In this document: positions 8,519-18,200 of the stretch, piece after piece
How positions within the stretch are numbered: the stretch's first letter is position 1
Layout of the letters: each line of letters starts with the position of its first letter
Source: a virus
DNA length: 20,320 nucleotides
Direction: 5' to 3' (one strand)
IMG/VR virus record: IMGVR_UViG_3300009488_000099
Span: 1 to 20,320 of that record
Position numbers and translations under genes: made by a program
Notes under the pieces: model-generated
Seen by the model: the letters and a program-made list of their open reading frames with translations, nothing else
What the model was told of the DNA's origin: nothing
Databases searched by the model: none

Positions 8519-8806
8519 ATGGAAAAACAATTTACAACTACAGCTGAGAAACTTCTCGAGATACAAAAGAAAATCAAGTTTCTTAAAATAAAGGAAAAGG
8601 AAGAAGCTGAACGGCTAAAAAGTATATGCGGAGAAGAAACAACCTCTTTTAATGGATACACGTATAAAAACATAGAAAGAAAAGGCTCCATTAAATACAC
8701 GCTAATACCTGAGCTTAAGAAAATAAACCTTGAACAATACAGGTCAGAACCTACGTCATACTGGAAGCTCAGCTTTACCGAGCAGTTCGATATGGAAGTA
8801 GCATGA
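8519..8806 (+). CDS. Small protein resembling the C-terminal tail of YqaJ-type phage exonucleases
   Basis: 95 residues; first gene of the rightward operon. Residues 5-38 form a charged coiled coil (AEKLLEIQKKIKFLKIKEKE). Residues 53-85 read IERKGSIKYTLIPELKKINL, EQYRSEP, SYWKLSF. As I recall the family, the pattern RKGS-(I/V)-Y-IPEL-(D/N)LE-YR-P-YW occurs at the C-terminus of YqaJ-type viral recombinase nucleases, after a similar coil. Here the nuclease domain is absent, so the protein would be a stand-alone version of that tail. This fits an operon with ERF annealing proteins. The start has AGGGA about five bases upstream. The resemblance is from memory and needs a profile search. Confidence 0.75.
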   Translation: MEKQFTTTAEKLLEIQKKIKFLKIKEKEEAERLKSICGEETTSFNGYTYKNIERKGSIKYTLIPELKKINLEQYRSEPTSYWKLSFTEQFDMEVA

Positions 8807-8916
8807 TAATTTTAAATGTAATAGCTACGATAGAATATTTATATGCCATAGCAATCTGTTTAATAGGGGTCGATATTATATCTAAATGCCTACTTAGTTA
8901 CTCAAAAGGAGAGTAA
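8803..8916 (+). CDS. 37-residue membrane peptide
   Basis: This frame fills exactly the space between two genes: its ATG overlaps the preceding TGA by four bases (ATGA) and its TAA is followed directly by the next ATG. Residues 1-25 (MIILNVIATIEYLYAIAICL and on) are hydrophobic with one acidic residue, and a second weakly hydrophobic part follows. The last codons AAA GGA GAG TAA form the ribosome site of the next gene. Both junctions support real translation. The function is unknown; small phage membrane peptides of this kind often act on the host envelope or exclude other phages. Confidence 0.6.
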   Translation: MIILNVIATIEYLYAIAICLIGVDIISKCLLSYSKGE

Positions 8917-9120
8917 ATGAAAAGACTATCAATAATTGCTTCAGACGAATTGCATAAATCAATTAAAATTCTTGTACTCATGCACGACATAACAATGACA
9001 GAAGTAATAGCTATGGGTGTATCACTATTTGCAGAACAGGCAGACACCAAGAAAGAAGTTAAAAACCTTAAACACCAGATATACAAACTCAAATATGATG
9101 CAGCAGACAAGGATAAATAG
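8917..9120 (+). CDS. Ribbon-helix-helix DNA-binding protein with coiled-coil tail
   Basis: 67 residues. The N-terminus KRLSIIASDELHKSIKILVL has the strand-then-helix pattern of ribbon-helix-helix (Arc/CopG-like) proteins, followed by MTEVIAMGVSLFAEQ as the second helix and a charged coiled coil (residues 47-60). Such proteins bind DNA as dimers with the N-terminal strands in the major groove at short direct or inverted repeats. As the third gene of the operon, it is the best candidate in the window to bind the ACATATGT-type repeats at the operon promoter. That link is inference. AAGGAGA seven bases before the ATG supports the start. Confidence 0.75.
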   Translation: MKRLSIIASDELHKSIKILVLMHDITMTEVIAMGVSLFAEQADTKKEVKNLKHQIYKLKYDAADKDK

Positions 9121-9437
9121 TGCCTATCGTAAATGTTCTATATGGATTAGATAATTTACTTATAAAACAAATAATTATCGAAGAAGATTTCAACGATGAT
9201 GTATTAGAACTAGGTAAAGAAATTGTTAATAAAATACTAGAGATAGAGTCAAAAAAGGGGCCTAAAAAGTACATGGAGCCAATACTATTAAAAATAATGA
9301 TTCATCTGGAAGATGAAGAGCCAAAGAGATACTTAATAATGCACCCAAAGGCACATGAATTAAATATGGACTCTTTTAAGGATCAGCTTGCATCAGGCAT
9401 AGCAGTACAAATATTAAATACAGTTAAGGATAAATAA
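9120..9437 (+). CDS. Hypothetical protein, 105 residues, GTG start
   Basis: The start is GTG 9120, sharing one base with the upstream TAG, with AAGGA six bases upstream in the last codons of the preceding gene. The protein is soluble and largely helical, with acidic and lysine-rich segments (EIVNKILEIESKKGPKKYME). It ends in KDK, encoded by the ribosome site for the next gene. No family is recognised. Its place before the ERF genes suggests an early function. Confidence 0.72.
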   Translation: MPIVNVLYGLDNLLIKQIIIEEDFNDDVLELGKEIVNKILEIESKKGPKKYMEPILLKIMIHLEDEEPKRYLIMHPKAHELNMDSFKDQLASGIAVQILNTVKDK

Positions 9438-9655
9438 TGGAAAATTATCTCTGTTATGTAGACCTTATTTTAAGCATGACGCTCTGCGTAATGGTGTGGC
9501 GCTTACGCAGAGAAATGTTGAGCTCTAAAACAGGTACTCGCAAATACATAGATCAATCGTATGAAACTATCTGGAAAGTACTAGAACAAAGGCTAGAAAT
9601 CATGGAACGAAAACTAGAAAAAGTAATGGAAATTAAATCTACCTTTGAAGGATAA
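9437..9655 (+). CDS. Small N-anchored protein with coiled coil
   Basis: 72 residues. Residues 5-21 (LCYVDLILSMTLCVMVW) may form a membrane span, followed by RLRRE and a helical region with coiled-coil character (WKVLEQRLEIMERKLEKVME, residues 46-65). ATG 9437 shares one base with the upstream stop (TAATG). This anchor-plus-coil design is the same as in the leftward genes at 4520-4858 and 4859-5131, without evident sequence identity. No family is recognised. Confidence 0.68.
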   Translation: MENYLCYVDLILSMTLCVMVWRLRREMLSSKTGTRKYIDQSYETIWKVLEQRLEIMERKLEKVMEIKSTFEG

Positions 9656-9659
9656 ATTA

Positions 9660-10160
9660 ATGGAAGAACAAATAAAAGAACTCAACACTCTACAGACATA
9701 CGCAAGACAAGTAGCTAAAAAAGACTTCTTCTACAACATCATGTCTTCTAAGATAGACCTAATCTCTAAAGCTATTATAGACTTTAAAAAATCTTCCATA
9801 GAAATGAAAACAGATAAGGCCGCTGGCGGTAGATATAAGTATCAAAGCTTGCCTGCCCTCCTCAATGCAATATCTACATCGTTGGCTAAGTACGGTCTGA
9901 CGTGTATGCAGCCCGTTCACTCCTTAGCCGACAAAACATATGTCATCACACTGATATTGCATTCCAGCGGCCAGTATATTCGCTCCGTTACAGCCGTTCC
10001 AGAAAGATACACAATGGCAGGCAAAGTAGTTATAACTAACGAGAACCTACAAGCCATGGGAGGCGCACTCACTTACACAAAAAGACACGCACTGAAGTCT
10101 ATCCTTGGAATAGACGCAGACGAAGATACAGATGGTAACAGTCCCTACACGAGGAATTAG
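9660..10160 (+). CDS. erf: ERF-family single-strand annealing protein (copy 1)
   Basis: 166 residues. ATG 9660 is preferred because AAGGA stands seven bases upstream, inside the previous gene's end; an in-frame TTG five codons earlier is unlikely. ERF proteins bind single-stranded DNA and anneal complementary strands during phage recombination and genome circularisation. The core is RYKYQSLPALLNAISTSLAK (residues 58-77), GLTCMQ, TYVITLILHSSGQYI, and the signature NLQAMGGALTYTKRHALKSI (129-148) ending in LGIDADEDTDGN. The C-terminal domain found in the second ERF gene is missing, so this is a minimal form. It lies 0.6 kb upstream of the divergent second copy. Confidence 0.9.
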   Translation: MEEQIKELNTLQTYARQVAKKDFFYNIMSSKIDLISKAIIDFKKSSIEMKTDKAAGGRYKYQSLPALLNAISTSLAKYGLTCMQPVHSLADKTYVITLILHSSGQYIRSVTAVPERYTMAGKVVITNENLQAMGGALTYTKRHALKSILGIDADEDTDGNSPYTRN

Positions 10161-10161
10161 A

Positions 10162-10656
10162 ATGGAAAGAGAATGGAAGAGAACAGCCAAAGAAAAAGTT
10201 ACTAAAGTAATTTTTTACATCCTAATTGGTGATGAAAAAGGAGATTCAAAGGAATCAGCAGCAATTAAAGATGCCCAAGAAGATGGGATCGCCTACGGCT
10301 ACAGTCCTGAAGAAAGTCGATTTTATATTACAACATTAAATGAATTAAATATTGACATGAAAAGGTTCGTCGATATCATTCAAGAAAAATTAGACGCAAG
10401 CTTCTTTGAAAAAGCTAGAAAAGCCGCAGGAAGTAAGGCATTCACCCTGAAAATGGGCATAATCTTTACTTTATTGATACGAGAAGACGAAGAAGATGAT
10501 GATCAAGAAGTACACGATCAAGCTCTAGAATCCGTGGATTTTGCTAACGAATATCTATTAGAAAAAAACAGTCTCATCGGAGAAATAGTAACATCTTTTA
10601 AAGATTCTCTTAAGAGATATGCAATTAAAATGGGCGTCGTGGAAGAGGAGAATTAA
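10162..10656 (+). CDS. Hypothetical protein, 164 residues, between the two ERF genes
   Basis: ATG 10162 follows the ERF 1 stop by one base and has GAGGA six bases upstream; a longer frame starting inside ERF 1 is unlikely. The protein is soluble and charged, with a lysine-rich N-terminus, a very acidic stretch near residue 113 (REDEEDDDQEVHDQ) and otherwise helical segments. No nuclease or DNA-binding motif is recognised. Its position between two recombination genes suggests a role in DNA metabolism, perhaps as a partner of the annealing proteins, but the sequence does not show this. Confidence 0.75.
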   Translation: MEREWKRTAKEKVTKVIFYILIGDEKGDSKESAAIKDAQEDGIAYGYSPEESRFYITTLNELNIDMKRFVDIIQEKLDASFFEKARKAAGSKAFTLKMGIIFTLLIREDEEDDDQEVHDQALESVDFANEYLLEKNSLIGEIVTSFKDSLKRYAIKMGVVEEEN

Positions 10657-10657
10657 A

Positions 10658-10786
10658 TTGTGTACAAATGAGATTAAGATGGACTTTCCAGACATTGATA
10701 AGGAAGAGTTAATTAGATATATATATGAATCAGTTAGTGAAAAGCTAAAGGAACTTAATGGACATGACGGAGAGAGAGACGTTTAG
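10658..10786 (+). CDS. Short ORF before ERF 2, possible 42-residue protein
   Basis: The frame opens with TTG 10658, seven bases after GAGGAG, or with ATG 10679 (35 residues, weaker site). It reads DFPDIDKEELIRYIYESVSE and on, a plausible acidic helix. It overlaps the first 29 bases of ERF 2 in another frame and contains that gene's AAGGA site, so it may serve translational coupling. It fills what would otherwise be a 100-base gap in a tightly packed operon. It is short and unrecognised. Confidence 0.45.
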   Translation: MCTNEIKMDFPDIDKEELIRYIYESVSEKLKELNGHDGERDV

Positions 10787-11522
10787 AGACCAACTGTCTC
10801 ATTTTGATGCACTCGAGAAATACATAGATAAGAAGCTAAAAGATAGAGAGAAATCCAGCAAGGGTGACCCATACGAGTCAGAGAAGACTGATCAGATATG
10901 CACAGCGCTGGCCAAGGCACAAGGAGAGTTCCCTAAAATAAACAACAACAGAAAAAACAACTTCCTGTTCAACCAGTACTCAGACCTAGACATAATCGTG
11001 AGAACTATACGCCCAGCACTTTCCATTAATGGATTATCAGTAACCCAGCAAACCAAACTTAGCGATGAGAAGACTATTCTCATTACTAGACTCAGACACA
11101 AATCATCACAGTTCATCGAGACACGCTCAAGAATAATTCCCTCAAAGAACGATATACAATCTTACTCATCCGCTATTAAAGCTATGAAGCGTCATGACAT
11201 TATGGGACTACTAAACATAACCATAATAGACGACTACGACGACGACGATGGTGAGCACGACATGCAAGTGATAAGGAAGGAGCGTAACGCCGGATTAGGT
11301 ATAAACACTCGTTACAAGGCAAAAGAGGAGTCGTTTGAACCCATTACGCAACACCAGGCTTCAGAATTGCAGTACGTTCTAGCTAACTACCCAGATATAG
11401 CTAAACAAGTACTTGACGCCCTAAGGGTAACAACAGTCGCTGATATCCCTAGATCTAAGTTCGATAAAGTAAGAGAACAAGCTCAAAATATAATTAATGC
11501 TAGAGAAGGCAGAAATAAATAA
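10758..11522 (+). CDS. erf: ERF-family single-strand annealing protein (copy 2) with C-terminal domain
   Basis: 254 residues, with AAGGA five bases before ATG 10758. Residues 1-45 are a charged helical extension. The ERF-like core runs from about 46 to 175: AKAQGEFPKI, YSDLDIIVRTIRPALSINGL, TILITRLRHKSSQFIE, and QSYSSAIKAMKRHDIMGLL followed by an aspartate-rich stretch. It matches ERF 1 in order of elements but is strongly diverged. Residues 194-250 (EPITQHQASELQYVLANYP ... ADIPRSKFDKVREQAQNI) form a separate helical domain of the kind found at the C-terminus of some phage annealing proteins. That domain is repeated as the next gene. Confidence 0.85.
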   Translation: MDMTERETFRDQLSHFDALEKYIDKKLKDREKSSKGDPYESEKTDQICTALAKAQGEFPKINNNRKNNFLFNQYSDLDIIVRTIRPALSINGLSVTQQTKLSDEKTILITRLRHKSSQFIETRSRIIPSKNDIQSYSSAIKAMKRHDIMGLLNITIIDDYDDDDGEHDMQVIRKERNAGLGINTRYKAKEESFEPITQHQASELQYVLANYPDIAKQVLDALRVTTVADIPRSKFDKVREQAQNIINAREGRNK

Positions 11523-11677
11523 TGGAATTAATTACGAAACATCAAGTCAGAGAGATACAGTTACTGCTATTTAAGAACATTGGCAATCTAGATATGCACA
11601 AAGGTATCCTTATGGGGCTAAGAGTTTGCACTCTAGCAGACATCCCTAGATCTAAGTTCGATAAACTAAGAGAACAA
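11445..11677 (+). repeat. Near-identical 36-base block in ERF 2 and the next gene
   Basis: Positions 11445-11480 and 11642-11677 match with a single mismatch, including 24 identical bases in a row. Both encode IPRSKFDK(V/L)REQ in the C-terminal domain. The surrounding domain copies are more diverged. This points to a tandem duplication or to gene conversion between the two copies. The start and end given span both copies. Confidence 0.9.
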
Positions 11678-11722
11678 ATTAAAATGATAATCAATGTCAG
11701 AGAAGAAGGCATCTATAAATAA
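11522..11722 (+). CDS. Stand-alone copy of the ERF 2 C-terminal domain
   Basis: 66 residues. It aligns over nearly its whole length with residues 194-254 of ERF 2: LITKHQVREIQLLL against PITQHQASELQYVL, and TLADIPRSKFDKLREQIKMI against TVADIPRSKFDKVREQAQNI. ATG 11522 shares one base with the ERF 2 stop (TAATG), so both are translated together. By analogy with lambda Red beta, whose C-terminal domain binds the exonuclease and SSB, such a free domain could compete with or bridge partners of the annealing protein. That role is inference; the duplication itself is plain in the sequence. Confidence 0.8.
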   Translation: MELITKHQVREIQLLLFKNIGNLDMHKGILMGLRVCTLADIPRSKFDKLREQIKMIINVREEGIYK

Positions 11723-11739
11723 TTTTCTCCTGATAGTCG

Positions 11740-11770
11740 GCGCCCTAACCCCGAGAAAAAGCTAGGGCGC
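11740..11770. terminator. Hairpin between convergent operons
   Basis: GCGCCCTA (11740-11747) and TAGGGCGC (11763-11770) form a perfect 8-bp GC-rich stem with a 15-base loop. It lies just after the last rightward gene and just beyond the stop of the leftward propeller gene, the expected place for a shared terminator. There is no T run on either strand, so it is not a standard intrinsic terminator. It may block transcription in another way, protect mRNA ends, or act as leader for an ORF that starts at 11788. Confidence 0.5.
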
Positions 11771-11799
11771 TACCTAAAGGAGAGAAGATGAAGAAATTC

Positions 11800-13533
11800 T
11801 TACAGCGTTGCTACAATATTAAGATTAGAGGTTGGATATATAATTATATTTCCAGATGCATCAGAAGCTACATTTATAGCATTACCTATTTTATTTTTAT
11901 AATCCTGAAACCATAATATTCCATTAGGAGATATAGCCGTCATACCAGTTCCATCACCTGAAACGGCTACAAACATACCGTTAGAACTATCCCAAGTAAC
12001 ATCATCAGCTACCATAGTATTAGCCAATACATTCTTACGCTGTGTCCATGTTATTCCATCTGGTGAAGTTGCTACTTTTCCCTGCTCACCCACAGCACAA
12101 AACAATGTTAACGAAGATGAATATGTAATCGCCTTAATACTCTGCGTTCCAAAACTAGAAGTCTGCGATGTCCACGCACCAGTAGGATCTGCTGCTGTTG
12201 CCACAAACCCACTATCTCCAACCACTACATGGGTAGAGTTACCATACGCAGCACCGTTTAATGGCTGAGAAAGTCCAGTACTATTAACAGTCCATGCTCC
12301 AGTTGGATCAGTCGCAGTGTAAACTATAGAATCAGCCGTCAATACCCAGTGACTTCCTCCTTGATTAACTCCAGTAAAAGTTCCGCCAGCATCAGAAGGA
12401 AGCGTAGTATATTGTGTCCACGTTGCCGTAGGATCTGTTGCTACCCATACTCTTCCTGTTCCACCACCTTCACCGATAGATCTTGTGGGGATTACAACAC
12501 AAAATCCATCTCCACCGCAATGTGATTTAGTAAAGAAATCCCACGCACTAAAACCAGCCTGCAAATATTCCTGAGTCCATGTTACTGCGTCAGGTGAGCT
12601 ATAAATTCTTTGCGTTGCACCCGGTTCAACCTCTACCCAAACAGAAGATCCAAATGAATCATACGATACTCCAGTAAAGGTTGTTGGACCAGAAATTGCT
12701 CTCATTTCTAAGAGATATGGACTACCAAGATCGTTGGTAGATTCTAAATTTAACGTATTAGATCCTGCAGTATAAGTTATCGTACCACTTGTTGAAGTAA
12801 GAGTTGCCCAAATAGGTGCAACACCAGTTCCAGCTACGAATAACTGCCCGTCAGTTCCATTAGAACTAGACAAAACTCCACCCGCACTAGAAGAAACTAC
12901 TCCCAGTCCTAGACTTGAAAACGCAGGATCTGCATCCAAATTTATTGTAACTGTATCACCAGCACCAGCGGTATTGATATTAGTACCACCAGCTATAACT
13001 ATAGCGTTACCAGCTATAGTCGCTGTGCCAGCATCTGTTGTAAAATCTTGTGCGCCTAAAAACCCACCCTTAATGTCTATGTTTAATGTATTAGCGCCAG
13101 CCGTGATATCCATCGTGCCACCGCTAGAAGTAAGAGTAGCCCACGCAGGATCTAAACCAGTAGCCCCTACAACTAACTGACCGTCACCACCCTGCGTTAG
13201 GCCTACAGTTACAGTATCGCCAGTAGCAGACGTTACCACAACATTACCACCAATAACGTCCATCTCATCGTTTACTGCTGTCGCACTTCCCGTATCTGCA
13301 TTTACAGTAAGAACACCACCCGTAACCTCAGTCCAAGTAGCAACCCCTCCAACTAAATTAGTAAGGAACCACACCTCATTAGTAAGACTATTTACCCACA
13401 GATCACCGATATTAAAATTATTCTGTTGAGAGGTAGGGGTTCTAGGTTGAACTATTAACTGAGGAGGCGTAGTAGCCTCAACTCCCATGTACGAAAGAGG
13501 CTCTGCTCCAGTAACTCTTTTAGGTCTTGCCAT
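11800..13533 (-). CDS. Virion/tail-fibre protein with beta-repeats and C-terminal beta-propeller
   Basis: 577 residues, start ATG 13533 with GGGAG five bases upstream. Residues 40-70 hold GDLWVNSLTNEVWFLTNL, seen in phage fibre-like proteins. Residues 70-275 are glycine/threonine-rich beta-repeats, including two copies of a module of the form DGQL-V-TG-P-WATLTS-GT-TAG-NTLN and one copy of DAGTA-AG-IAGGTNINTAGAG. From about 285 a propeller of six or seven blades follows, each with (T/A)(T/A)DPTGAWT or PDGITWT near the blade end, like BNR/Ycf48-like repeats. Such proteins bind surface sugars or form particle appendages. The propeller is a paralogue of the next gene upstream. It is the last gene of the leftward fibre block. 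Confidence 0.75.
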   Translation of the reverse strand: MARPKRVTGAEPLSYMGVEATTPPQLIVQPRTPTSQQNNFNIGDLWVNSLTNEVWFLTNLVGGVATWTEVTGGVLTVNADTGSATAVNDEMDVIGGNVVVTSATGDTVTVGLTQGGDGQLVVGATGLDPAWATLTSSGGTMDITAGANTLNIDIKGGFLGAQDFTTDAGTATIAGNAIVIAGGTNINTAGAGDTVTINLDADPAFSSLGLGVVSSSAGGVLSSSNGTDGQLFVAGTGVAPIWATLTSTSGTITYTAGSNTLNLESTNDLGSPYLLEMRAISGPTTFTGVSYDSFGSSVWVEVEPGATQRIYSSPDAVTWTQEYLQAGFSAWDFFTKSHCGGDGFCVVIPTRSIGEGGGTGRVWVATDPTATWTQYTTLPSDAGGTFTGVNQGGSHWVLTADSIVYTATDPTGAWTVNSTGLSQPLNGAAYGNSTHVVVGDSGFVATAADPTGAWTSQTSSFGTQSIKAITYSSSLTLFCAVGEQGKVATSPDGITWTQRKNVLANTMVADDVTWDSSNGMFVAVSGDGTGMTAISPNGILWFQDYKNKIGNAINVASDASGNIIIYPTSNLNIVATL

Positions 13534-13544
13534 ACTATCTCCCT

Positions 13545-14477
13545 TTAACTAAAACTTGTTTTAATAGTCGGACCATCACCAACCACAACTAAAAATCCAT
13601 CTCCGTATTTCAGATCCCACATATTAGCGAAACCACCAGTATCTAAATGCCAAGTTATTCCATCTTGAGATAGTCCTATCTCCGAAGAATTAGTAACAAC
13701 TACAAACAAATTTTCTGTAGCATCCCATTGGACAGTTGTATCGATACTTCCACCACCAAAAGGGCTAGTTCTTTGAGTCCAAGACGTCGTATCAGAGCCT
13801 GCCGCAGTTCCTATCTTTCCAGATGCACCAACGGCACAAAATAAATCTAACGTAGGAGAATAAGCTACATATCTAATATCCGTAGCACCAAATGAAGATG
13901 TGCGCTGAGTCCACGTACCTGTTGGATCCGTCGCTGTAGCCAACTTACCAGCCCCACCAACCATAACGTACGTTGTTCCATCAAATGCACACGACCTACA
14001 GAAATCAGCACCAAAAGATGATGTCCTACTTGTCCAAGTTCCCGTTGGATCTGTCGCCGTTGTAAGAGTTCCAGATGAACCCATAGCTAACCAGTAGGTA
14101 GTCCCATCCCAAAAAACACCCTGAATACCAGTAGCACCAAACCCAGACGTTCTAGACGTCCAAGTGGCCGTAGGATCTGTAGCCGTAAGCATATAGCCAG
14201 AATCACCCACAGTCGTCCACGTTGTACCATCATTATCGATGTCTCTCATGTTATTTAAAGCTGTCTCCTGAATAGTCCATGTAATAGCATCGGTAGACGT
14301 AATAAGGTCAGATGTACCTGCAGTAGCAGCATTAACAGCAGTCCAGTAAGTACTACCATCATATCCTACACCTCGCATAGCCGAACTTATTGCTCCTGGA
14401 GTTCTAGATGTCCATGTATAGGGACTAATAAATTCTCTCCTCTTAGAAGAGAGAATACCTGGCTGGGATACTATCAT
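13545..14477 (-). CDS. Seven-bladed beta-propeller virion protein (BNR/Ycf48-like repeats)
   Basis: 310 residues made almost wholly of seven repeats. The TWT-type tryptophans are at residues 22, 67, 106, 148, 189, 233 and 276, spaced 39-45 residues. The blade pattern is TATDPTGTWTSRTSSFGA, then I-V-YDG-Y-VG-SG. Seven repeats of this size close one propeller, so the protein is likely a complete domain used for binding host-surface glycans. No sialidase catalytic set can be seen. The start overlaps the HNH gene stop by four bases (ATGA), with AAGGA six bases upstream. Similar blades occur in the downstream 577-residue protein. Confidence 0.78.
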   Translation of the reverse strand: MIVSQPGILSSKRREFISPYTWTSRTPGAISSAMRGVGYDGSTYWTAVNAATAGTSDLITSTDAITWTIQETALNNMRDIDNDGTTWTTVGDSGYMLTATDPTATWTSRTSGFGATGIQGVFWDGTTYWLAMGSSGTLTTATDPTGTWTSRTSSFGADFCRSCAFDGTTYVMVGGAGKLATATDPTGTWTQRTSSFGATDIRYVAYSPTLDLFCAVGASGKIGTAAGSDTTSWTQRTSPFGGGSIDTTVQWDATENLFVVVTNSSEIGLSQDGITWHLDTGGFANMWDLKYGDGFLVVVGDGPTIKTSFS

Positions 14478-15166
14478 GCTACATCCTTTCTAAGTCCTTT
14501 ATTCCATGGAACTTTTCCTTTAGAAGATTCACTCATTTTTTTCTTAGATTCTTCTGTGTGGGTTTTGCCTTTCATCCACGAAACCTTTCCCTTAAGTGAA
14601 TCACTCATTTTTTTTAAGCTCTCTTCAGTATGCCTTTTTCCCTTCATCCATGGAGTACGACCTTTTAGTGCTTCTTTGTGCGCCTCACTTAATTTCTTAC
14701 CTTTTTTAGCATCACGCATTTTCTTTCTTGCCTCGGCACTCTGCGTTTTTCCTTTCATACCAGAAACAACTATTCCTTTTGTTCCTTTATTCCAGGGGGT
14801 TCTGCCTTTAAGCTTCTCTCGATGTTCTAGGCTAAGCTTCTTTCCTTTGTGAGCTTCGCTAAGTTTTTTGCAATGCTCCTTGCTTAACGTCCTACCCTTA
14901 AGTAACGATACGCCATCTTTCATAAAATTACACTTCTGCTTTCCGTGCAATCTGGCGTGGCATGAGCTACATAAAGTTATACCGTTACTAATTTCAATCC
15001 TAAGCTCAGGATATTCATCCCAACATTTAATGTGATGTGCATGGATTAATATGGCATCTCCTGAGCTACCGCAATCTTGACAGGTAAAATTATCTCTTTC
15101 AAAAACTGCATCACGCCATTCATAGCAGTCAATCCTATTGCGCTGAGCAACTTTACATACTTTCAT
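14474..15166 (-). CDS. HNH homing endonuclease with NUMOD3 repeats
   Basis: 230 residues from ATG 15166, chosen because GGAG stands five bases upstream; a longer frame would run into the fibre gene. The HNH domain has CQDC at residues 29-32, the catalytic HAHHI at 42-46, asparagine 61 and CSSCHARLH at 66-74, with the four cysteines binding a structural zinc. Residues 85-230 are about six NUMOD3-type DNA-binding repeats (GRTPWNKG, GKTQSAEARKKM, KGKVSWMKGKTHTEES). Free-standing enzymes of this type cut a target near their own gene and spread by repair. It lies between two fibre genes and its last codons supply the ribosome site of the next gene. Confidence 0.93.
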   Translation of the reverse strand: MKVCKVAQRNRIDCYEWRDAVFERDNFTCQDCGSSGDAILIHAHHIKCWDEYPELRIEISNGITLCSSCHARLHGKQKCNFMKDGVSLLKGRTLSKEHCKKLSEAHKGKKLSLEHREKLKGRTPWNKGTKGIVVSGMKGKTQSAEARKKMRDAKKGKKLSEAHKEALKGRTPWMKGKRHTEESLKKMSDSLKGKVSWMKGKTHTEESKKKMSESSKGKVPWNKGLRKDVA

Positions 15167-15239
15167 GATATCTCCAGTTAATTTAAAACTATCAACTTTA
15201 TCTATCATGAAAGTATTACTTCTTGGCGCCAATGTCACA

Positions 15240-18200
15240 CTAAGCAAGGTCGCCACCACAGAGCCACTCATCTGTCGCTATCTTAGTAACAGAGGCTATA
15301 GCGTACTGCCCAGCAGTATCTAATAACGCTCCCCTAGACCTCAAGGTCACACCACCCTCTGGCGTTAGAGTTACCACTCCTGCACCATTTTGTGATATGA
15401 GAACGTTAGTTCCGATATCCATCGCAACATCAGCATTAACAGGAATCGTAACTGCAATAGCAGCAGCGTTTGTACACGTGACTATCTTACCTCTATCACT
15501 AGCTAGAAGTTCGTAAGTAGTTCCGGTCTGGTTGTTTACAGCTATCGTTCCAGTAGAAGAAAGATCTATAGTTCCAGCACCACCAGTAACTTCTATAGAA
15601 TTATCCGCAGACGCCACAGTAGCAAATACAGGGTCTGCTCCTGTAGAGCCAACAAGAAGCTGTCCATTAGTTCCAACAGCCAGCGGAGTAATAGCTCCAA
15701 CTCCAGAACCAACAAGAACACCATGGTCAGTAAGAGTGGCAGCCCCTGTTCCACCAGATGCTACACCAACTGGTGTAGTTGCTGAAAGAGTAGTAAATGC
15801 CCCTGTACTAGGTGTGACTGCTCCTATTGGTACACCTTCAATTTTTGTAGCGCCACCGATTACTACGTTGCCAGCTCCTATTTCAGTCAATGTTCCAGCA
15901 AGGTTAGAAACATTCAGACTAACTATCGAAGCAGCTGTAATATCGGATAGCTTATCTAAGTCTAGATTAGAAACTGTTAAATGAATTTCTGGAGTTCCTC
16001 CACCAGATGTAAGAAAAGCCGTTCCGTCTCCAGCGCCCATATTTCTTATAGAATCACCACTTGCCTGAAGTGCTCCACCTGTTGTACAACCAAATACTGT
16101 TCCTGTTCCTATTACATACAGACATAAAAACGAAATCTGTATGTCGTCTGTAGTTGTACTTCCTATCACAAATCCATTATCAAGCGAGATTCTCTCAACA
16201 AACAACGTTAAAGAACCAGCCAAACAAATAAAACCTGTTGCTGTTCCAGAAAGAACTATTCTTTTAAGATTGATGCTAGCTTTTTGACTTGCTGTGTTCA
16301 TAGTTATACCGGTAACACCAGTCGCTACCGTCATTTCACCAAATGTCCAAATATTATCTGTTGTTATAGAATGGCTACCTGCAAGAATCGCATTTGGGGC
16401 GTAGATATTTATGCCCGACACACCCGTTATATTTTCAGTATAGATTCCATCATCGGCACATGATACAACATCACCCGATGAAGCTGCCGCTATAGCTGCT
16501 CCGAAAGTAAGAAATGCTCTGTTTATACTTAAACCATCGTTTGCATCGTTACCATGCTTGCCAACATAATAGATATTAACCTGAGGCAATCCCCAATCAT
16601 CTATAGTCTCAAGAGCTACTTGAACAGTTGTATCGCTAGCAGATAAAATCCCATCAAAGTTAGCTACATCCGTAAGAACTAAAGAAGCTAAGTTAGTTCC
16701 ACCTCCTGTAGAGAAAAACGCCCTAAGAGTTGCCTTTTCTATAATTACTTCAACTATTGTGCTTGTAGATTGCCTATAAATTATATGACCAAGCTGGGCT
16801 AGTTCAAGTTTGGCCAATTCAGCTGTAGCTAGTGATACAGTTCCATCGGCTATAGCCGTTTCAGCTGTTCCAAGGTTATTGTATTCTTGATCATCTAAGA
16901 CAGCCCAATATATAGGAGTATCAACTGTAATATTATCCTTAGAGACATAAAGAGTATAAATGCTAAACCTAGTACCAGAGCCAGCTGTAGGTGTTCCGGC
17001 GCTATTCCAAAACCCATTAAATGTATCTGAAGCTTGATAGGTCGCCCACTTTCCAGCACCAGTTGTATACATTTGATTCCACACTTCAGCTACACCACCA
17101 CCATCTGGAATAACTGTATGCAAACCATGATCATCTAATTCATCGGCCCCAACAATCTCTATTTTTTGCGTTCCATTAAGAGTTATATTTGCACCCTGTA
17201 ATTGGTTTTCAATTATAGTACCTATTGCATCATGGTTGTAAACAGATACGGCAACTGGAAAATCAAATGGATGATTCTCTTTAACGGTATATTGTATATT
17301 GGTACCCGTAGAATCTCTTAATACCTCAAAAAGTGGAATGTTATTCTGATAGGCATCCTGACCACTGAAAGTTGTAGTCTTTCCGATTGTGCCAGTGTCG
17401 TCTATATATATTAAGTAAGTGTTCCCAGCGAGAAGACCAGTTACAGTCTGACTACCAGCCCATGAAACCTGGACCCCGTTTATATATCCTGATCCACCAG
17501 TCAGCACTTCAAATGATCCAAGTACAGTATCATCAAAAAATGGCCCACCACCACTCCATTGATCAAAACCTGTAGATATTGTCAATGAAGCAGAAGCTGA
17601 GACTACACCGCTTGAATCTACAATAAGACCGCCATCTGTTATAGAAGTAAGCGTTACATCTACTCCAACCGTAAGATCAGCACCTGCAACAAGATCACCT
17701 GCCGTGGCAGTAACATTACCAGTAGTAGCTATTACGCCTGTTCCACCAGTAACAGTTGTACCAAAATCACCATATCCTATTAAAGAAACAACGTTTCCAG
17801 CGTTTGCGGTTATATCTCCAACGACACTTGTGATACCAGTGCCAGCTTCAATTGTAGTAAAGGCAGTTATTAAACCACCAGAATTTATATTTCCCGCCGT
17901 TGTAGTTATATTTCCTGTAGTCGCTGTTACAAACGTACCAGCCGTAAGAGAACCAACAAGAGAAACACTATCATCTAATATAACAGTTACAGTATTACCA
18001 GCGCCTGTTGTATTTATATTAGTCCCACCAAGTATGTTAGTATCACCGGCTACAGGAACGGCAGTACCTGCATCTGTAGGAAAAGAATCGGCGAACACAC
18101 CCGCGTGAGAAATAGTTAAGGTATTAGGAGTTCCTGCAACTGTAATACCAGCTCCACCAAGAATATTGATGTTTCCTGCTACTGGCCCTATCACACCACC

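Follow-up and report, generated by a model that had tools for sequence, protein, structure and literature searches.

A free-standing copy of an Erf-family annealing-protein C-terminal domain beside its parent gene in a virus record

The Erf gene run and its neighbours

The window analyzed here is the whole 20,320-base IMG/VR virus record IMGVR_UViG_3300009488_000099. On its plus strand, at roughly 8519-11722, lies a run of overlapping or closely spaced genes that includes two Erf-family annealing proteins, ERF1 and ERF2, the second of which carries a C-terminal domain (CTD); the last gene of the run encodes a 66-aa protein that is a free-standing copy of this domain. The features are:

8519..8806, plus strand: 95-aa gene related to the final ~80 aa of YqaJ-type exonucleases but encoded on its own (iterative HMM)
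9645..10160, plus strand: ERF1, the shorter of the two Erf proteins, with no CTD (PF04404, 53 bits)
10758..11522, plus strand: ERF2, an Erf-family single-strand annealing protein of 254 aa with a CTD (PF04404, PHROG 2324)
11334..11519, plus strand: ERF2 CTD (residues 193-254), from which the copy derives (CTD alignments, model)
11445..11480, plus strand: 36-base block in the ERF2 CTD, identical to the copy at 35 of 36 bases, a likely conversion tract
11520..11524, plus strand: TAATG, in which the ERF2 stop overlaps the ATG start of the copy (sequence)
11522..11722, plus strand: free-standing CTD copy, 66 aa (ORF, profile match, three-helix model)
11642..11677, plus strand: 36-base counterpart of that block within the free copy (sequence comparison with the ERF2 CTD block)
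11723..11786, plus strand: strong hairpin at the operon end, directly 3' of the copy (folding -29.2 kcal/mol, z -5.3)

Residues 49-167 of ERF2 match Pfam PF04404 at 45.9 bits (cut-off 25), which places the protein within the Erf core family, and its match to the Erf-like PHROG 2324 has E 8.6e-25. The 66-aa protein matches, over its whole length, a CTD profile built without it (E 6.7e-18); chance similarity is rejected on this basis, and the full-length alignment with the ERF2 CTD claimed in the initial annotation holds. Copy and ERF2 CTD share 53% amino acid identity over 62 residues and differ by two in-frame insertions, of 3 aa and 1 aa; K45 and R60, both basic and conserved, are retained in the copy, and at the DNA level there is a direct repeat (11421-11508 and 11618-11705) that is 78% identical. 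The 66-aa protein contains no Erf core (PF04404), and searches with it return no Pfam family at E <= 1 and no NCBIfam match; judged by these sequence models, the free copy is the tail domain only and not an Erf protein. The TAATG overlap suggests that ERF2 and the copy are co-translated, possibly by termination-reinitiation.

The copy is followed by the hairpin at 11723-11786 and then by a convergent gene; in the relative L001 a stretch similar to the hairpin, terminator-like, begins right after ERF2. Searches of the window for Rfam families gave no match, and a tRNA search found none. Two adjacent long, repeat-rich ORFs on the minus strand (11800-14477) contain recurring 'W..DG..W..' motifs, with repeats near 11905-12597, and are possibly tail fibres or adhesins. 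Between tail-fibre-like genes, also on the minus strand (14474-15271), lies a 265-aa ORF that contains HNH-like motifs and repeats of GRTPWxKGK and weakly matches models of IscB and of group I intron endonucleases; from these features it is likely a homing endonuclease.

At the other end of the run, an iterative HMM search links the 95-aa gene at 8519-8806 to the C-termini of 284-297-aa ORFs; seven of these were scanned, and PF09588 (YqaJ) is present in every one. The other members of its family are of two kinds: separate genes of 92-114 aa, found in related phages, and the C-terminal ~80 residues of YqaJ-type exonucleases, which other phages encode near ERF. This small exonuclease-tail domain is free-standing in 8 of 35 records, and the YqaJ nuclease domain was found in only 1 of 35. 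These phages thus keep a free exonuclease tail too, the presence of which does not track that of the free ERF tail; a link between the two was considered and dropped, the three other records with a free ERF CTD being without the free exonuclease CTD.

Age and distribution of the free domain

The initial annotation had described the duplication as recent and had noted a 35 of 36 base match between the two genes. The match is real, and a run of this kind arises in 0.27% of codon permutations, but the rest of the pair tells otherwise. Third positions differ between the copy and the ERF2 CTD at 0 of 12 sites within the block and at 27 of 50 outside it (Fisher P 0.0006). Outside the block, 15 of the 24 codons that specify the same amino acid in both are identical, and for the orthologous CTDs of L001 and the window the corresponding figure is 21 of 37. 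Because synonymous divergence outside the block is therefore about the same as that from the CTD of the nearest relative, L001, we reject a recent duplication: the pair is a mosaic, with old divergence along most of its length and one homogenized patch, the 36-base block, that looks like the product of a later conversion.

Profile searches recovered about 60 IMG/VR records in which an ERF carries a CTD of the ERF2 type, and free copies were sought with a tail profile in their loci and, for 49 of the ~60, in the whole records. Within this scope, free-standing CTD genes were found only in the window and in three other records, L035, L025 and L054, a rarity in keeping with the earlier remark that a separate copy of this domain is unusual. 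The same two-gene layout, which the initial annotation proposed to look for in related phages, is found in L035 (record 3300020129_000572), where a copy 38% identical to its own ERF2 tail lies downstream of ERF2 with an identical TAATG junction, but not in the nine other close-group records, all nine of which are without the copy; most close relatives also show two ERF matches. In L025 and L054 the free CTD genes lie upstream of ERF2. They are orthologous and 58% identical to each other, are 17% and 23% identical (L025 and L054) to their own ERF2 tails, and match the tail profile at E 3e-6 for L054 and 0.05 for L025, the latter match being backed by similarity to L054.

Used as a query, the 66-aa copy (P0002) finds no orthologues in viral contigs or phage records, and the L054 and L035 copies find nothing beyond themselves. 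In a tree the window copy groups with its own ERF2 (98/95), and three changes are needed; AU tests reject neither a tree in which the four copies form one clade (p 0.08) nor a grouping of the window copy with that of L035 (p 0.37). Repeated origin of the free copies is favoured by these sequence comparisons. ERF and terminase queries, run against genome contigs as a host search, gave no match. Several small genes in two relatives (L001:6595-7896 and L004:6878-7678) look secreted, with signal-peptide-like starts ending 'AME' or similar, and might hint at an unusual host.

Predicted fold and possible roles

The copy is predicted to form a three-helix bundle (pLDDT 82, from a 14-sequence alignment), as is the tail of ERF2 (residues 190-254; pLDDT 91, 59 sequences); a three-helix bundle placed C-terminal to an annealing core, as predicted for ERF2, is the arrangement of a Red-beta-type CTD. 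Annealing-protein tails are the best of the few PDB matches in both searches: for the ERF2 tail these are 8tg7 (Z 6.9) and 8tfu (Z 6.5), both of the Red-beta CTD with the SSB C-terminal peptide, then 6m9k, the Red-beta CTD with lambda exonuclease (Z 6.3), and 8qe9, 80-alpha Sak with SaPI2 Stl (Z 5.3), the next and unrelated row having Z 4.4; for the copy the best match is again 8tg7 (Z 6.8), and the Red-beta CTD matches of copy and ERF2 tail (Z 6.8-6.9) extend over 59-61 residues at rmsd 2.2-2.3, with weak Foldseek E-values (2-4) and with the proviso that Z < 8 in a small helical bundle can reflect a common arrangement. The correspondence with the partner-binding region of Red-beta that had been drawn from the sequence is thus matched by a resemblance between the predicted ERF2 CTD and the Red-beta CTD. 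The models point to a likeness in fold only: hhalign against a single Red-beta sequence gives a probability of 0.2%, and searching PDB sequences with the CTD profile returns chance matches only. The top BFVD matches are to phage proteins named 'Essential recombination function', in their C-terminal parts. At rank 28 there is a separate 68-aa protein of Lactobacillus phage SAC12B (A0A4Y5FFY1) with a similar predicted fold (TM ~0.7), which could be another example of a CTD-like protein encoded on its own or a three-helix bundle that resembles one by chance.

Our preferred reading, which we hold tentatively and at somewhat less than an even chance, is that the 66-aa gene encodes a stand-alone CTD module that acts in trans on the partner of ERF2's CTD, likely the host SSB. 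The gene would supply a three-helix partner-binding module copied from the ERF2 tail and made from the ERF2 message through the start/stop overlap, and the module would work in trans on whichever partner ERF2's own CTD binds. The partners of the Red-beta CTD are lambda exonuclease and SSB; it does not bind DNA, and its contact with SSB is required for recombination in vivo (PMC8303780, PMC4118853); by analogy, the partner here would be the C-terminal tail of the host SSB. No SSB gene was found in the 35 records examined, which points to the host SSB as the target, as in lambda. At SSB-coated DNA the copy may help or compete during the loading of multimeric ERF2, much like a minimal recombination mediator. 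Coupled translation, the SSB target and the mediator or competitor role are parts of the proposal that we infer, and the bridging or regulation suggested in the initial annotation may be read in the same way.

The copy could also be a decaying tandem duplicate of the ERF2 tail, functionless and open by chance. It is missing in all close relatives, and a branch model gives the window copy an omega of 0.68, which is not distinguishable from 1 (delta lnL 0.08) and lies well above the background omega of 0.03 (delta lnL 5.6 versus one omega), whereas orthologous ERF2 CTDs otherwise have omega < 0.1. The divergence is old, however, and the frame is intact all the same (P ~0.07-0.2 under neutrality at the divergence of the copy), both indels are in frame, and the changes relative to the ERF2 CTD affect 2 of 15 family-conserved columns and 24 of 44 others (P 0.005), so that variable positions have changed and conserved ones are mostly unchanged; this sparing of conserved columns holds without the 36-base block (P 0.02). 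Patchy presence alone is no argument for debris, since tandem copies would readily be lost by recombination. Free CTD genes also occur in three other records, and the orthologous L025 and L054 genes have pS 0.77 and pN 0.23, rates by which the pair is under purifying selection. The initial annotation had held that a frame that is not conserved in relatives, or is not under purifying selection there, would mark duplication debris. Absence from the nearest relatives and the dN/dS of the copy branch go that way, while the selected pair in two other records and the spared conserved positions go against it; we consider decay unlikely, although it keeps some weight.

Functional roles other than the one we prefer can be drawn from what is known of annealing-protein tails. 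The free CTD may compete with or cap the CTD contacts of ERF2 multimers, whether in self-assembly or with a partner such as an exonuclease, and so set the level of annealing. This would agree with the lambda CTD, which affects Red-beta multimerization and binds exonuclease (PMC5052646), and with the adjacent, overlapping genes of the window and L035, but YqaJ exonuclease is not found in 34 of 35 records, so that the classical partner is not visible, and L025 has another gene between the free CTD and ERF2; we give such a role rather little credence. The SaPI2 protein Stl2 inhibits 80-alpha Sak by gripping its CTDs and blocking access to its SSB (PMC11846896), and the Sak CTD is one of the best structural matches, which raises the prospect of a free CTD that titrates a host or satellite defence protein of this kind and so shields ERF2. 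Patchy presence and high omega would fit an arms race, but these phages have no known host and no known defence protein of the CTD-gripping type to face, and we regard titration as distinctly improbable. ERF1, part of the same run of genes, has no CTD, and the copy might give it the missing tail in trans; however, L025, L035 and L054 combine a free CTD with one ERF only, and the close relatives that have ERF1 are without the free CTD. This lack of co-occurrence speaks against a tail for ERF1, which we think very improbable indeed.

Returning to the stand-alone module acting in trans, the homology, the complete domain, the intact frame, the spared conserved positions, the predicted fold and the recurrence in other phages all speak for a functional module, and from the copies in three other records, one pair of them under selection, the free CTD genes look like real accessory proteins. 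It is possible, if doubtful, that free annealase tails make up a recurrent class of phage accessory proteins, Orf-like SSB-binding mediators or anti-defence decoys, repeatedly copied from the neighbouring CTD. The tails of annealing proteins are where host SSB and exonuclease are contacted and where one satellite defence protein takes hold. A phage that produces its tail separately offers a natural experiment on the tail's own activity and perhaps a handle for tuning recombineering or for anti-defence. It would also add a simple route to small accessory genes, in which a domain is copied out of a neighbouring gene.

Comparison with known systems

Like the domain described here, the Red-beta CTD is a ~65-residue three-helix bundle at the C-terminus of a phage annealing protein, but the two have no detectable sequence relation, its parent is RecT/Red-beta and not Erf, and it is not known as a separate gene. 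The CTD of 80-alpha Sak (8qe9) likewise belongs to a Rad52-like annealing protein and has a similar fold; it differs in being fused to the annealing core, where it is the target of the satellite, with no free protein. In fold the Red-beta CTD resembles Orf of lambda, which binds SSB and is a mediator protein in its own right (PMC8303780, PMC4118853). Orf shares with the 66-aa protein that it is a small separate phage protein, and it acts at SSB-coated DNA, the site proposed here for the 66-aa protein, but it is larger, dimeric and binds DNA via a central channel, and the 66-aa protein has no match to the curated Orf-family sequence models (Orf / NinB).

A shuffled C-terminal domain related to the Red-beta CTD is common to Sak4, RecT and Erf/Sak3/Rad52 proteins according to PMC8093625, and the ERF2 CTD is probably a shared SSAP C-terminal domain of this kind. 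A free gene for an annealing-protein CTD beside its parent is not reported in the literature searched; the domain itself is known, and its occurrence as such a gene appears not to have been described there. In the passages of PMC8093625 on this domain, it is described as a portion of larger proteins, and the free gene is the new element here.
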